Below, piece by piece: positions 2,582 through 34,989 of a DNA stretch of 48,805 nucleotides. Position numbers and translations under genes: made by a program. Position 1 is the stretch's first letter, and every line of letters begins with the position of its first letter. The DNA is from Kushneria aurantia DSM 21353 (GTDB taxonomy: Bacteria; Pseudomonadota; Gammaproteobacteria; Pseudomonadales; Halomonadaceae), in the NCBI RefSeq assembly GCF_000382245.1, contig NZ_KB907889.1, positions 1 through 48,805 of the forward strand, in the 5' to 3' direction. The notes beneath the pieces are model-generated. The model saw nothing but the letters and a program-made list of their open reading frames with translations. It searched no databases and had not been told where the DNA came from.

Positions 2582-4326
2582 GCAGCCCGCCGCTTTACCG
2601 ACTGATCGACCGGCTGCAGCGCGCGCCGCTCCTTCCCGTGCTGCTGATCGGCCTGCTGGTGCTGGGTTTCGGCATCGGCTGGCGCTGGCCGTGGCCCGCC
2701 GACGAGCCGCGCTTTGCGCTGATCGCCCGCGAGATGATCGCCACCCATCAGTGGCTGATTCCCCACCGCGCCGGTGAGCTCTACCCCGACAAGCCGCCGA
2801 TTTTCATGTGGGCGATCGCGCTCGGCATTCTGCTTACCGGCAGCCTCAAGATCGCCTTTCTGCTGCCCTCGCTGCTGGGCGGACTGGCCACGCTGGGACT
2901 GACCACCGACCTCGCTCGGCGTCTCTACGGCCCGCGCATCGCCTGGCTTGCCGGGCTGACGCTGCTGCTGACCGTACAGTTCACCCTGCAGTCGCGCACC
3001 GCGCAGATCGATATGCTGGTCACCGGCTTCATTACCCTGGGCGCCTACGGCGCGCTGCGCCACGCCCTGCTGGGACCGGCACCGGGATGGTGGTATCTGA
3101 GCTGCGTGTCGATGGGGTTGGGGGTGATCACCAAGGGTGTCGGCTTTCTGCCACTGTTGCTGCTGCCCGCCTGGTACGGTCTTGCCGCCTGGCAGCGCCG
3201 TCATCCGGGCGACCACTGGCGCCTTGCCCCGCTGACGCTCAAACAGCTCGGCATCGGCCTGGCGCTGCTGCTGGCGGCAATCGCCAGTTGGGTGGTACCG
3301 ATGGTGCTCTACACCAGCTTCAGCGGTGATCCGGCACTGGCCGCCTATCGAAACAATATCCTCTTTCAGCAGACCGGCGAACGCTACGCCGACTCCTGGC
3401 ACCACCTCGAACCCTTCTGGTATTACCTGCTCAAGGTGCTGCCCTGGGCCTGGCTGCCGGGCATGCTGGCGCTGCCCTGGGTAGTGCCACACTGGTTCCG
3501 CCGCCTGCGCCGCGCCGACCCGCGCCTGTGGCTACCGCTCTCCTTCGTGGTGCTGATGGTGCTGTTTTTCTCGCTGAGCCCCGGCAAGCGCGGGGTTTAC
3601 ATGACACCGGGCGCGGCGCTTTTCGTACTGTCGCTGGCGCCGGCGCTGCCGGGGCTGATCCGCCGCTCCGGAGTGCGCCGGCTGTGCTGGGCACTGATAG
3701 TAGCGCTGGGCGGCACCATCGGCGTGACCGGGGCGCTGTTCGCCACCGGCCTGCTCGACCCGGCAAGCCTCGAGGACAGTTTTTCCCGCTCGCCCTGGTA
3801 CTGGTGGCTGACCCTCGGCGCCGCCACCGCCGTGATCGCCGTGGTACTGCCGCCATCGAAGGGCGTGCGCGCGCTGGCGGTGTGGTTCGTAGTGTTCTGG
3901 GCGCTGTGGTCGAGCTGGGGCTATGCAGTGATGGATGACCACCGCTCGCGCCACGGCCTGATGGCGGAAGTGGCCCGCGTGACCCACGGCGCACCGCTGG
4001 CGCTGCTCGACTTCAGCGAAGTGACCGCCCTGCAGACGCGCCAGCCGATCGTGCAGTTCGGCCATGACACCGACCTCAACGGCGCGCAGCTCGACCGTGC
4101 AGTGGCCTGGCTGCGCGAGGCGCCGGGTCAGCGCTGGGCCCAGACTACCGCACACCAGGCCCGCAAATTCGCGTGCCTCGACCAAAACCGGCTGATCCCG
4201 ATCGACAACCGCGGCGGCGGCGACAACTGGGTGGTGTTCAGCACCGACGCGGTCAAGCAGTGCCCGGCGGATGCCCACGCCACGCCGCTGTTCCATTCGC
4301 CCACCCAACTGGCGCCGTCGCCATGA
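2578..4326 (+). CDS. ArnT/PMT-family glycosyltransferase (GT83-like), first copy
   Basis: A 582-residue polytopic inner-membrane protein of the GT-C fold. The N-terminal periplasmic loop after the first helix carries PADEPRFALIAREM and YPDKPPIFMW, the acidic and YPDKPP motifs shared by ArnT and related transferases. Around eleven or twelve hydrophobic segments follow, then a soluble periplasmic tail from about residue 455. Family members transfer a sugar from undecaprenyl phosphate onto lipid A or LPS core. ATGA overlaps on both sides indicate translational coupling. The acceptor cannot be told from sequence. Confidence 0.88.
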   Translation: MSSPPLYRLIDRLQRAPLLPVLLIGLLVLGFGIGWRWPWPADEPRFALIAREMIATHQWLIPHRAGELYPDKPPIFMWAIALGILLTGSLKIAFLLPSLLGGLATLGLTTDLARRLYGPRIAWLAGLTLLLTVQFTLQSRTAQIDMLVTGFITLGAYGALRHALLGPAPGWWYLSCVSMGLGVITKGVGFLPLLLLPAWYGLAAWQRRHPGDHWRLAPLTLKQLGIGLALLLAAIASWVVPMVLYTSFSGDPALAAYRNNILFQQTGERYADSWHHLEPFWYYLLKVLPWAWLPGMLALPWVVPHWFRRLRRADPRLWLPLSFVVLMVLFFSLSPGKRGVYMTPGAALFVLSLAPALPGLIRRSGVRRLCWALIVALGGTIGVTGALFATGLLDPASLEDSFSRSPWYWWLTLGAATAVIAVVLPPSKGVRALAVWFVVFWALWSSWGYAVMDDHRSRHGLMAEVARVTHGAPLALLDFSEVTALQTRQPIVQFGHDTDLNGAQLDRAVAWLREAPGQRWAQTTAHQARKFACLDQNRLIPIDNRGGGDNWVVFSTDAVKQCPADAHATPLFHSPTQLAPSP

Positions 4327-7039: not shown

Positions 7040-8974
7040 ATGACTGAACCCACCTCAGCCACCGCTCAACTGCGTACCCAGTCGGAGGCGCGCCGCACCT
7101 ACAATATCGACCAGTGGGGCAGCGGCTACTTCGATGTCGACGTCCAAGGCCACGCCGTGGTGCGGCCTTTCGGCAGCGCCGACGATCCGCACAGCCCCGC
7201 CCTGCCCCTGACCGGGCTGGTCGATGAACTCCAGGCCGCCGGCCTGCGCCTGCCGACCCTGGTGCGCTTTACCGATATTCTGCACGACCGTGTCGAACAG
7301 CTCTGCCAGGCCTTCGACACGGCGATCGACGAGCTCGATTATGGCGGCCATTACACCGCCGTCTATCCCATCAAGGTCAATCAGCAGCGGCGCGTGGTCG
7401 AGGAGCTGCTCGCCACCCCGGAGCGCGGCCGCGGCCGGGTGGGACTGGAGGCCGGCAGCAAGCCGGAGCTGCTGGCAGTGCTGGCCCTCTCCTCGGAGAG
7501 TACCTCGACCATCGTCTGCAACGGCTACAAGGACCGCGAGTACGTGCGCCTGGCGCTGATGGGCGAAAAGCTCGGCCACCGCGTGTTTCTGGTAGTCGAA
7601 AAGCACGCCGAGGTAGAGCTGATTCTGGAGGAGTCCGACCGCCTCGGCGTGGCGCCGCGCATCGGCGTACGCGCCCGCCTCGCCTCGGTGGGGCGCGGCA
7701 ACTGGGAGAGCAGCGGCGGCGACAAGTCCAAGTTCGGCCTTACCGCGCGCCAGATCCAGCAGCTGGTCAATCAGCTGCATCAGCGCGACCGCCTCGATAC
7801 CCTGCAGCTGGTGCACTTCCATCTCGGTTCACAGATCGCCAACATCCGCGATATTCAGCGCGGTTTGCGCGAGTGCACCCAGTTCTACCGCAGCCTGCGC
7901 GAAGTCGGCGTACCGATCAGCGTGGTGGATGTCGGCGGCGGCCTGGGGGTCGACTACGAGGGCACCCGTTCGCGCAGCTACTGCTCGGCCAACTACTCGA
8001 TGGACGAGTACGCCAACAACGTGGTGGGTGCCTTCGCCCAGCTCTGTCAGGCGCGCGACCTGCCCCATCCGGATATCATCTCCGAATCCGGCCGGGCGCT
8101 GACCGCCCACCATGCGGTACTGATCACCAACGTGATCGACGAAGAGCGCCACGAAGTGGAAGTGCCGCAGCGCAGCGCCGAGGCGGACCCCAACCTCGAC
8201 ACCCTGTGGCAGACCTGGCAGTGGCTCAACGAGCCCGCCGAACCGCGCCTGCTGGTGGAGTACTACCACGACCTCTACCAGGCGATGAGTGATATCCAGG
8301 AGCACTTCGTGCTGGGCAGTGCCAGCCTCGCCGTGCGCGCCGAGGGTGAGGCGGTCTATATCGCCGCCTGCCGCCGCCTGCGGGCACGGCTTGATGGCCG
8401 CAACCGCGCCCACCGTGAAATCCTCGATGAAATGGACGAGAAGCTTGCCGACAAGCTGTTCGTCAACTTCTCGCTGTTCCAGTCGCTGCCCGACGTCTGG
8501 GGCATCGACCAGATCTTCCCGGTGCTGCCGCTCTCCAACCTCGACCAGCCGCCGGTGCGTCGCGCCGTGGTGCAGGACATCACCTGCGACAGCGACGGCC
8601 GCATCGAGCGCTACGTCGACGGCCAGGGGGTCGAGAGCACCCTGCCGCTGCCGGAGTGGAAAGAGGGCGAAGAGAAGCTTTTGGGGCTTTTCCTGGTCGG
8701 CGCCTATCAGGAGATTCTGGGCGATCTGCACAACCTCTTCGGCGACACCGACTCCATCGACGTCAGCCTCACCGAGGAGGGCGAGTGGCGCCTCGGCACG
8801 CCGATCGTCGGCGACAGCGTCTCCAACGTGCTGCGCTATGTGAACTTCGACCCCGACCAGCTGCGCAGCCGCTTCCAGCGCCAGCTGATCAGAAGCGAGG
8901 TCTCGAGCGAGGAGCGCGAAATGTTCCTCGAGGAGCTGGAAGCGGGGCTGGAGGGCTATACCTATCTGGAGTAG
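7040..8974 (+). CDS. speA: Biosynthetic arginine decarboxylase
   Basis: Converts L-arginine to agmatine and CO2, the first step of the agmatine route to putrescine. The 644-residue length is normal for SpeA. PLP-binding Lys112 lies in TAVYPIKVNQQ; LQLVHFHLGSQIAN and VDVGGGLGVDYEG are the conserved barrel motifs, and DITCDSDGR contributes the C-terminal active-site Cys/Asp region. A GGAG sits eight bases before the ATG, and an AT-rich ATAATATG at about 7000 may be its -10 region. It is monocistronic, with short gaps on either side. The agmatine-processing enzymes are not in the window. Confidence 0.96.
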   Translation: MTEPTSATAQLRTQSEARRTYNIDQWGSGYFDVDVQGHAVVRPFGSADDPHSPALPLTGLVDELQAAGLRLPTLVRFTDILHDRVEQLCQAFDTAIDELDYGGHYTAVYPIKVNQQRRVVEELLATPERGRGRVGLEAGSKPELLAVLALSSESTSTIVCNGYKDREYVRLALMGEKLGHRVFLVVEKHAEVELILEESDRLGVAPRIGVRARLASVGRGNWESSGGDKSKFGLTARQIQQLVNQLHQRDRLDTLQLVHFHLGSQIANIRDIQRGLRECTQFYRSLREVGVPISVVDVGGGLGVDYEGTRSRSYCSANYSMDEYANNVVGAFAQLCQARDLPHPDIISESGRALTAHHAVLITNVIDEERHEVEVPQRSAEADPNLDTLWQTWQWLNEPAEPRLLVEYYHDLYQAMSDIQEHFVLGSASLAVRAEGEAVYIAACRRLRARLDGRNRAHREILDEMDEKLADKLFVNFSLFQSLPDVWGIDQIFPVLPLSNLDQPPVRRAVVQDITCDSDGRIERYVDGQGVESTLPLPEWKEGEEKLLGLFLVGAYQEILGDLHNLFGDTDSIDVSLTEEGEWRLGTPIVGDSVSNVLRYVNFDPDQLRSRFQRQLIRSEVSSEEREMFLEELEAGLEGYTYLE

Positions 8975-32816: not shown

Positions 32817-32997
32817 GGGTGGTTGATCGCCTCGAGCAGCCTGTCGCCGCACTGCGCGAGGTCATCGCGATACGCCATTCAGCCGGTTCTGTCGAGTGCC
32901 GCTCATGCCGGCGGATATTGCCACAATACTTTCTTCCATTAAGCTGCTTCCTCATTATGAGGTAATCAACTGTCGCACTATGGGGAGCGCTATCGTC

Positions 32998-34437
32998 ATG
33001 ATCGCCTCGTCCGATGCCATTGTCAGCGAGACGGCGTTCTATCGCCTTCTCGATGAGCTCAACGAAGGCATCATCATACTCGACCACCATCAGCACCTGC
33101 GGCTGGCCAACCGTGCGGCCCTGCACATGTATGGCGTAACCGCGATCGCCGAGCCGGGCGACAGCTGGGACGAATGGCGCCAGCGCTTTTCGCTGCGCCG
33201 CCGGGACAGCGCCTGCCAGGATACACCGCTGCCCATCGAGGCACTGGTGGCCGGCACCCCTTTCGACCATCTGGAAGTCGAACTTACCGTCACCGACGAG
33301 ACCCGCGTGCAGCGCCTGCGCGGCCGGGTACTGGACAGCGGCGCCCGGCCCGCACGGGTGGCACTGTTCATCGAGGATATTACCCGGTTGGTCAGCGCCG
33401 AAGCGCGCTTCGAAAGCGCCTTCAACGCCAATCCGGCCCCGGCAGTCATCTGCCGGCTCGACGACCTGCGCTTCGTGCGGGTCAACGACGGCTTCCTCGG
33501 GCTCGTCGATCTGCCGCGTCATGAGGTGCTGAACCGCTCGATCTACGAGCTTGACGTTTTCGCCGGCGCCGACAATCGCCAACAGTCGATTCGCCTGCTG
33601 GCCCGGGGCGAGGCGATCCCCCTCACCCGCTCGGCATTACCCACCGCCGATGGCGGTACCCGCCGCGTCGAGGTCGCCGGCCAGCCGATCGACATGAACG
33701 GCACTGACTGCATGCTGCTCACTTTCGATGACCTCGAACCGACCCAGCGCGCCCGTGACGCACAGCGCCGCAGCGAAGCGCAATTCGCCGCCGCCTTTGA
33801 CCTCTCGCCGATACCCACCGCACTGCTGGATCGCCACAGCCTGACACTGGTCGAGGCCAACAGCGCCTATGCTGAAGTGTTCTGCGGCGATGACGACACC
33901 CGCTGCGGCGATCCGCCGCTGAGCGATACCGTGCGCCGGCGCCTTTTGCGCGCACTCGAAAGCGAGATCCGGCTACGGGCGATGGAAGCGACGCTCACGC
34001 CGGCGGGCGGCGAGGCGCTGACCTTTCTGATCTCGGCGGCGGTGGTCAAATTCGAACAGGGCGAGCGGATTCTGCTGACGCTGATGGACATCAGCCGGCG
34101 CAAACGCTCGGAAACCGAGCTCTACCAGGCGATCGAATCCGTCATGCAGGACGCCTCCTGGTTCACCCAAAGCCTCAACGAGCGCCTCGCCGGTGTGCGC
34201 GACAGTGCCGCCGTGACCGAGACCGAGCGGCAGGCGCTGGAGGAACTGAGCACGCGCGAGCGCAACGTGCTGGCGCTGCTGTGCCGTGGACTCTCCGACA
34301 AGCGCATCGCCTCACAGCTCGAGCTGGCCCACAGCACGGTGCGCAATTACGTCGCCTCGATCTATCGCAAGCTCGAGGTACACAGCCGCAGTGAGGCGAT
34401 TATCAAGGCGAGCCAGTGCGGCTTTACCCAGGAGTGA
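32998..34437 (+). CDS. PAS-domain LuxR-type transcriptional regulator
   Basis: A 479-residue cytoplasmic regulator: three PAS domains (about residues 12-125, 135-255 and 262-375), then a GerE/LuxR HTH at the C-terminus, marked by LEELSTRERNVLALLCRGLSD and STVRNYVASIYRKLEV. No kinase or receiver domain, so it is a one-component sensor regulator. The frame is open to 32896. ATG 32998, with GGGGAG eleven bases upstream, seems the best start, and 32980 is possible. It lies immediately upstream of the CsrB-like RNA gene, whose transcription it could influence; that link is speculative. Confidence 0.85.
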   Translation: MIASSDAIVSETAFYRLLDELNEGIIILDHHQHLRLANRAALHMYGVTAIAEPGDSWDEWRQRFSLRRRDSACQDTPLPIEALVAGTPFDHLEVELTVTDETRVQRLRGRVLDSGARPARVALFIEDITRLVSAEARFESAFNANPAPAVICRLDDLRFVRVNDGFLGLVDLPRHEVLNRSIYELDVFAGADNRQQSIRLLARGEAIPLTRSALPTADGGTRRVEVAGQPIDMNGTDCMLLTFDDLEPTQRARDAQRRSEAQFAAAFDLSPIPTALLDRHSLTLVEANSAYAEVFCGDDDTRCGDPPLSDTVRRRLLRALESEIRLRAMEATLTPAGGEALTFLISAAVVKFEQGERILLTLMDISRRKRSETELYQAIESVMQDASWFTQSLNERLAGVRDSAAVTETERQALEELSTRERNVLALLCRGLSDKRIASQLELAHSTVRNYVASIYRKLEVHSRSEAIIKASQCGFTQE

Positions 34438-34525
34438 TCACGCCCTCGTCTGACCGGACGCCGGCGACGCAAATGCACCCTCTGGCGCAGTACATCTGTA
34501 TCTATGGCGGCAGGGATATTGCGCC

Positions 34526-34531
34526 TATATT
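34526..34531 (+). promoter_or_regulatory. Putative -10 box of the CsrB-like RNA
   Basis: TATATT, about 8 bp before the predicted RNA start. No consensus -35 is present at 17 bp (TATGGC), as expected for a promoter that depends on a response regulator of the GacA/UvrY type. No clear TGTAAG-N6-CTTACA box could be identified. Confidence 0.45.
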
Positions 34532-34537
34532 GACCCT

Positions 34538-34732
34538 GCTTCGGGAGCGCGCAGGAAAGCGCCGGGGAGAAGGATCTCCCCCACCGCAGGACGCGGAAGC
34601 GCTCGGAGCCGGATTCAACCCCCTGCACAGGGGTTGGATACCGCAGGGAAGCGGATGCCAGGGAGGGCGTCCATGTTCAGCGCGCGATAGCCGTCACTTC
34701 GGTGGACGGTTACCGCGCGCCGAACGCTTTTT
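34538..34732 (+). ncRNA. CsrB/RsmZ-family small RNA (CsrA/RsmA-sequestering)
   Basis: About 195 nt without coding potential, built of small hairpins exposing GGA in the loop. GCGC-AGGAAA-GCGC (34549-34562), GGGGAGA-AGGA-TCTCCCC (34564-34581), CCGC-AGGAC-GCGG (34584-34596), CCGC-AGGGAA-GCGG (34641-34654) and GGATGCC-AGGGAG-GGCGTCC-type stem (34653-34672, sharing two bases with the previous one). Additional GGA motifs lie in single-stranded linkers at 34611 and 34636, flanking a CAACCCC/GGGGTTG stem (34616-34636). A strong terminator closes it. Multiple AGGA loops are the defining feature of RNAs that titrate the translational regulator CsrA/RsmA. The 5' end is inferred from the -10 box. CsrA itself is not in the window. 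Confidence 0.82.
34676..34732 (+). terminator. Rho-independent terminator of the CsrB-like RNA
   Basis: Outer stem GCGCGCG (34680-34686) with CGCGCGC (34714-34720), extended by TTC/GAA. The inner stem CCGTCAC/GTGGACGG is capped by a TTCG tetraloop (34698-34701). It is followed by CGCTTTTT (34725-34732). Confidence 0.8.
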
Positions 34733-34735
34733 GTG

Positions 34736-34933
34736 CTATATCAGCCGGCTCTCGGCATAAAGCGTGTCGACCAGCGCCGCCGCCGGCATGGGGCGGGTCA
34801 GCGCCGCGCCCTGGCCCGCCCAGCAGGCGTCGAACTCATGATCCCCGCATGCCACCGCCGCCGCGGCCAGTTCCGGGGTCGAAACCCCTGCCATCGGCGC
34901 CTGAATAATGGCGGGCAGGCGGGTAGTGTTCAT
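34736..34933 (-). pseudogene. Nitronate monooxygenase gene with internal deletion
   Basis: A 65-codon frame fusing both ends of a nitronate monooxygenase. Residues 1-28 (MNTTRLPAIIQAPMAGVSTP and on) are the N-terminal FMN-binding strand of the family. Residues from about 33 (EFDACWAGQGAALTRPMPAAAL) are the family's extreme C-terminus. The intervening roughly 270-300 residues of the TIM barrel are missing, in frame. A good ribosome site (GAGGAGATCCC) still precedes the ATG. The product cannot be an active flavoenzyme; whether it is expressed is unknown. Confidence 0.8.
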
Positions 34934-34989
34934 GGGATCTCCTCGACGAAATCGGTCAGATGGCAACCTGTACGTCAGCGCCTATCGCA

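Follow-up and report, generated by a model that had tools for sequence, protein, structure and literature searches.

Positions 34538–34732 of the window, the whole 48,805-nt stretch of Kushneria aurantia DNA analysed here, probably encode a CsrA sponge that is driven by the adjoining PAS-LuxR regulator and not by Gac/BarA-UvrY. The product would be a small noncoding RNA working like CsrB/RsmZ, whose GGA hairpins would bind CsrA dimers and take CsrA off its target mRNAs. In the proposed mechanism the PAS domains of the regulator would sense an internal signal, and the protein would turn the promoter on by binding a 23-bp dyad whose midpoint lies some 54 bp upstream of the putative RNA start. 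A single adjacent one-component regulator, instead of GacA/UvrY, would in this way set CsrA activity through the RNA. Transcription, activation by PAS-LuxR, CsrA binding and sequestration are predictions, as is the direction of evolutionary change discussed below. The locus is a candidate Csr-type sRNA in the Halomonadaceae with a different, adjacent controller. With the patterns used here, each Kushneria genome that carries the regulator gene has one predicted operator, which would make for a short and testable path from signal to CsrA.

Predicted RNA and its fold

The candidate RNA, about 195 nt long (34538–34732, + strand), has a start inferred from the −10 box TATATT at 34526–34531. Folding gives a 5′ domain (34538–34609) in which an outer stem encloses three hairpins with GGA in the loop: hairpin 1 (34549–34562, loop AGGAAA), hairpin 2 (34564–34581, loop AGGA) and hairpin 3 (34584–34596, loop AGGAC), each also recovered by hairpin counting. 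Hairpin 4 (CCGC-AGGGAA-GCGG, 34641–34654) was identified by the count and shares two nucleotides (34653–34654) with hairpin 5 (34653–34672, loop AGGGAG), which was found by both routes. The minimum-energy fold of the full 215-nt region (z = −5.3) shows four of the five hairpins, the AGGGAA hairpin 4 being left unformed. The RNA ends in a predicted terminator (34675–34732), a long stem tipped by UUCG (34675–34725, −34.2 kcal/mol, z = −5.3) followed by T5 at 34728–34732. An earlier note on this DNA had claimed five GGA-loop hairpins within about 125 nt, a TATATT upstream and a terminator with a UUCG tetraloop and T5; the hairpins and terminator are borne out by sequence and folding and the TATATT is seen where given above. 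A consensus scan of 34300–34950 returned neither a promoter-like (sigma-70) nor a terminator-like site, probably because the promoter has no good −35 element and the terminator stem is mismatched.

The content of GGA motifs is well above that of shuffled sequence. A 205-nt candidate segment contains 13 GGA (mean 4.9, largest 12, in 1000 mononucleotide shuffles) and five GGA-loop hairpins (mean 1.15 in 1000 dinucleotide shuffles, three of which reach five). The whole 48,805 nt was scanned for both features in 9720 segments of 205 nt per strand. Segments with five or six GGA-loop hairpins start exclusively between 34446 and 34551 on the + strand, the highest number elsewhere being four, at 7431–7441 (+) and 3116–3146 (−). 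Likewise, segments with at least nine GGA are confined to starts between 34396 and 34586 on the + strand.

A 114-aa ORF (34416–34760) overlaps the RNA, and aligned relatives differ there by indels. Among the ORFs of the window there is no recognisable gene close downstream of the RNA on the + strand. The proposal, also made earlier, of a CsrA-sequestering layout in a stretch where no gene is recognised is supported by the hairpins and by their conservation in relatives. A short ORF of Kushneria starting MKG within hairpin 3 was considered by eye and dropped, since the stem itself can account for the conservation there; its start was not seen in the window. On the opposite strand, a 76-aa ORF (34736–34966, −) resembles by eye a nitronate monooxygenase that lacks its central part, the beginning being fused directly to the end; the Pfam NMO model matches residues 18–37 below its cut-off (21.4 bits against 28).

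Conservation and covariation

By comparative sequence analysis, 34538–34732 is a conserved RNA in Kushneria and Salinicola. A 261-base DNA query had no match at E 0.001 in 57 other genomes and matched the source genome only, and protein, dyad and covariance routes were therefore used instead; a search of a plasmid collection also gave no match. By these routes a related RNA was found in the same place, downstream of the PAS-LuxR gene, in seven of nine other Kushneria genomes and in five Salinicola genomes. The Salinicola consensus has an outer stem around three hairpins with loops like AGGAA, AGGA/GGGA and AGGC, with more GGA hairpins following. The Kushneria consensus is arranged likewise, and the window sequence folded on its own agrees with it. 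Single-sequence folds of three Kushneria loci (KuG004, KuG005 and KuG009) depart from this layout and lack one or more of the three 5′ hairpins, and alignment between the two genera is poor past the 5′ domain.

Covariation in hairpins 1 and 2 was tested on 12 Kushneria and Salinicola rows, with the window left out. Pairing was retained in 89.5% of 143 cells, with at most 41.3% in slid versions of the structure. There were 27 double-change cells against a shuffle mean of 10.6, and the covariation score was 0.499 against 0.222; none of 500 shuffles was as high in either case. Two of the five covariation measures were unremarkable, with 72 of 500 shuffles as high for double-change pairs and 89 of 500 for further pair types. 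The GGA is retained in both hairpins while the stem sequence varies.

A covariance model built from the same 12 rows without the window, with the structure supplied to it, finds the window at 34532–34612 with 25.1 bits (E 0.0006, filters off), the next best match scoring 13.5 bits. Run over 16 sources, the model placed the window (E 0.0014) next in rank to the 12 training loci; in the family genus g16 its matches were partial and weak (E 0.09 to 6.7). Over 275 genomes of the family, where stricter filters were applied and the window was lost, its matches were the 12 training genomes alone. The earlier note had named conservation of the GGA loops in related genomes as one of the points on which its reading would stand or fall, and such conservation is what the Kushneria and Salinicola loci, the covariation and the hold-out model display.

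Terminator candidates differ between loci. Among the 13 Kushneria and Salinicola loci, a terminator is clear in the window and fair in KuG004, candidates are weaker or distant in KuG006, KuG009, SaG203 and SaG206, and none was found in the other seven. Genus g10 has a strong terminator at the end of the RNA.

Rfam families, csrA and the Gac/UvrY system

The earlier note had called the locus a CsrB/RsmZ-type RNA. The layout agrees with that description; membership as Rfam defines it, and the usual Gac/BarA-UvrY control, are not supported. Rfam searches matched no family across the whole window, no Csr/Rsm family within 34300–34950 at E up to 10, and none at gathering score in 16 related loci, so that the covariance check proposed with the earlier note came out negative. 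In particular, the RNA gives no match over the gathering score to CsrB (RF00018) or PrrB_RsmZ (RF00166). Elsewhere in the source genome RF00018 has one weak match, away from the RNA locus (26 bits, E 3.8e-5), which dropped out when 275 family genomes were searched with stricter filters; that search returned a single RF00018 match, in genome G187 and under the cut-off, and none over it. RF00166 has three weak matches elsewhere in the source genome, two of them on what appear by eye to be terminator-like stretches, and these are uninformative because at E 10 the model also gave matches in 12 of the 14 genomes used as controls.

The GacA/UvrY side was examined in the window and in the source genome (99.98% complete, 61 contigs). 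The motif TGTAAG-N6-CTTACA, which we take to be the upstream GacA/UvrY site, occurs four times in the window with three mismatches, each time away from the RNA, where chance would give 5.4 such matches. The UvrY/SirA/GacA model has 24 matches in the source genome, the best reaching 68 bits where the cut-off is 280, so that none passes; the best of these proteins scores higher on ErdR (247 bits, still under the ErdR cut-off of 390). As judged from these scores, the genome has no clear GacA/UvrY. It does encode one CsrA (90.7 bits) of the usual sequence, which has both L4 and R44, singled out as critical residues in PMC7652899. BarA-UvrY or its orthologs control CsrA-inhibiting RNAs in many Gammaproteobacteria (PMC7652899). 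GacS/GacA has been reported for Halomonas anticariensis, a member of the same family, and a table in a review lists its Gac-Csr sRNA as unknown (PMC7366521).

Compared with CsrB/CsrC of E. coli and RsmX/Y/Z of Pseudomonas, the Kushneria RNA is alike in its several GGA hairpin loops, its predicted terminator, its intergenic position and the presence of csrA in the genome. It differs in having no Rfam match, no nearby GacA/UvrY site and, in the source genome, no protein that passes the cut-off as a GacA/UvrY ortholog, and in adjoining, and co-occurring with, a PAS-LuxR gene and a dyad. Because the predicted function is like that of CsrB/RsmZ while the Rfam, Gac-site and GacA-ortholog tests are negative, we set the RNA apart from the known families. 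Other RNAs share some of these features. RsmV and RsmW of P. aeruginosa are described as Gac-independent RsmA-sequestering RNAs, seemingly specific to that species, and the cited part of their description mentions no linked dedicated regulator (PMC7366521). RsmU of Xanthomonas is an RsmA-binding RNA outside the known families, and differs in being processed from the 3′UTR of a comEA mRNA (PMC7694677). Pf2 and Pf3 of Pseudoalteromonas fuliginea were first picked out from their GGA motifs together with a promoter and a terminator, after which CsrA binding was shown; Pf1–Pf3 are Csr sRNAs of another genus with 9–25 GGA motifs, and the section cited mentions no PAS-LuxR link (PMC11882849). In the open-licence PMC literature, none of the titles and abstract beginnings among the matches listed concerned this RNA or the PAS-LuxR/csbD unit described below.

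The PAS-LuxR gene and the 23-bp dyad

The gene upstream of the RNA (32896–34437, +) encodes a PAS-PAS-LuxR(GerE) transcriptional regulator (GerE 2.8e-17, PAS_8 2.1e-16), the proposed activator of the RNA. Its true start is probably further in than that of the listed ORF, since the matches of relatives in the genus begin at residues 36–47. Protein matches were found in eight of 10 Kushneria genomes, the source genome included, and a threshold of E ≤ 1e-60 gave matches in 16 of the 275 genomes of the family (Kushneria 8, Salinicola 5, g16 2 and g10 1). The two remaining Kushneria genomes, G002 and G007, have no match to the gene, the dyad or the RNA model, as expected of one unit that is gained or lost whole.

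Between the gene and the RNA lies the 23-bp dyad ATGCAC-N11-GTACAT (34473–34495), identified by pattern comparison as the putative operator. A dyad follows the PAS-LuxR gene in all 16 of the 275 family genomes that have that gene. The dyads of the five genomes assigned to Salinicola (genus g4 of the family set) are identical to those of five Salinicola contigs. Compared with ATGCAC-N11-GTGCAT these loci carry zero to three mismatches, 15 of the 16 having two or fewer. A long dyad pattern that includes the right flank, with three mismatches allowed, found one site in each of the eight gene-bearing Kushneria genomes and none in the two without the gene, the backward control being zero; a shorter pattern with one mismatch found the same place in each genome, its extra rows being the same sites on the opposite strand. 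Over the 275 family genomes the long pattern matched 23, namely eight Kushneria, five Salinicola and 10 others. The 10 others hold 11 sites, one with two mismatches and the rest with three, and the backward control matched five genomes, so that weak dyad matches outside Kushneria and Salinicola are near chance level.

The distance from dyad to promoter is also conserved. TAT[AC]TT lies 55–56 nt from the start of an AAATG(C/T)A pattern in all 13 Kushneria and Salinicola loci, and at an offset of 55 there is CAGAAT in g16 and TAAAGT in g10, taken as −10 boxes by eye. The co-occurrence of gene and RNA, together with the dyad in between, strongly supports the suggestion of the earlier note that the PAS-LuxR gene belongs to the same regulatory circuit.

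The regulator and dyad outside the family

The PAS-LuxR gene and dyad are also found outside the Halomonadaceae. From a scan of genome contigs the best 80 of 191 PAS-LuxR loci were kept, of which 10 were from Kushneria and Salinicola; the other 70 come from Pseudomonas, Burkholderia and kin, Serratia, Lysobacter, Dyella and Luteimonas, with a few unassigned. A dyad lies within 450 nt in 59 of these 70 (from the best 80 of 191) at two or fewer mismatches and in 63 at three or fewer. Reversed controls gave 0 and 3 over the same loci, and shuffled controls about 1 and 10. In 42 of the 70, again from the best 80 of 191, a csbD-type gene lies no more than 900 nt away in the same orientation. This PAS-LuxR/dyad/csbD unit, seen in Pseudomonas, Burkholderia and kin, Serratia, Lysobacter and Dyella, resembles the window in its regulator (39–44% identity over the best segment) and in the 23-bp dyad of like form that follows the gene. 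It differs in output, which in those 42 of 70 loci (best 80 of 191) is a csbD-type gene and not a GGA RNA.

The number of GGA hairpins in the 260 nt after the dyad is five in the window, two to four in other Kushneria, seven to eight in Salinicola and four in g16 and g10. In the 70 outside loci it is zero to three, which overlaps the range of the other Kushneria, and plain GGA counts overlap more (0–11 outside the family against 5–13). In the two g16 loci (L131 and L132) four GGA hairpins make up a leader between the dyad and a csbD-type gene, which starts about 350 nt after the regulator match; CsbD is confirmed for L131 (PF05532, 1.1e-12). On this arrangement, g16 may possibly have CsrA control of csbD, or represent an intermediate form.

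These comparisons suggest a switch that kept its operator while its output, once a protein gene, became an RNA that traps a protein. The Halomonadaceae circuit would then have arisen when an older PAS-LuxR/dyad switch, which in other bacteria stands before csbD, acquired a new output. The fuller proposal, in which a PAS-LuxR regulator with its own sponge RNA replaces Gac/BarA-UvrY in Kushneria and Salinicola, the output having been swapped from the csbD unit with g16 as a living intermediate, is put forward tentatively, and we rate its chances at somewhat under even. Two Pseudomonas loci, L086 and L071, have the dyad without csbD within 900 nt and another small ORF next (in L086, MLTVSQLRNCIEEG...); judging from this gene order, the PAS-LuxR/dyad switch may have acquired a new output on more than one occasion.

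Alternative explanations

The RNA might be derived from the 3′ end of the mRNA of the upstream PAS-LuxR gene, given that it starts about 100 nt past the stop codon and that a 3′UTR-derived RsmA-binding RNA has been reported from Xanthomonas (PMC7694677). We consider this unlikely, as the dyad and the −10 box, at their spacing of 55–56 nt, separate the gene from the RNA in all 13 Kushneria and Salinicola loci.

The sequence could also be a CsrA-controlled 5′ leader, or its relic, from which csbD was lost in the window. The g16 loci L131 and L132, with a dyad, four GGA hairpins and then csbD, speak for this reading. The window RNA, however, ends in a terminator, with no recognisable + strand gene close after it, and the two stems covary in genera without csbD here, which makes a leader quite improbable.

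A structured RNA with another job, either a base-pairing sRNA or a protein-binding RNA unrelated to CsrA, is a further alternative, the function having been deduced solely from the GGA loops. The retention of GGA in hairpins 1 and 2 as their stems change, and the presence of csrA, speak for the CsrA sponge, and we regard a different job as very improbable. Chance GC-rich hairpins in a gap that encodes no RNA, an idea to which a GC-rich genome and the lack of an Rfam match lend some colour, are contradicted by the shuffles, the covariation and the hold-out model and are scarcely credible.

A second GGA-rich stretch in the source genome

The site of the weak RF00018 match in the source genome is a second stretch rich in GGA hairpins (L002, contig C1, about 83640–83845, − strand). 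It contains about seven AGGA/AGGGA motifs, with 11 GGA in 189 nt, and lies directly 5′ of a small ORF that by eye is zinc-ribbon-like. It is preceded by the near-perfect palindrome ATGTACAAAGCTTGTACAT, and is possibly another CsrA-binding leader or sponge.
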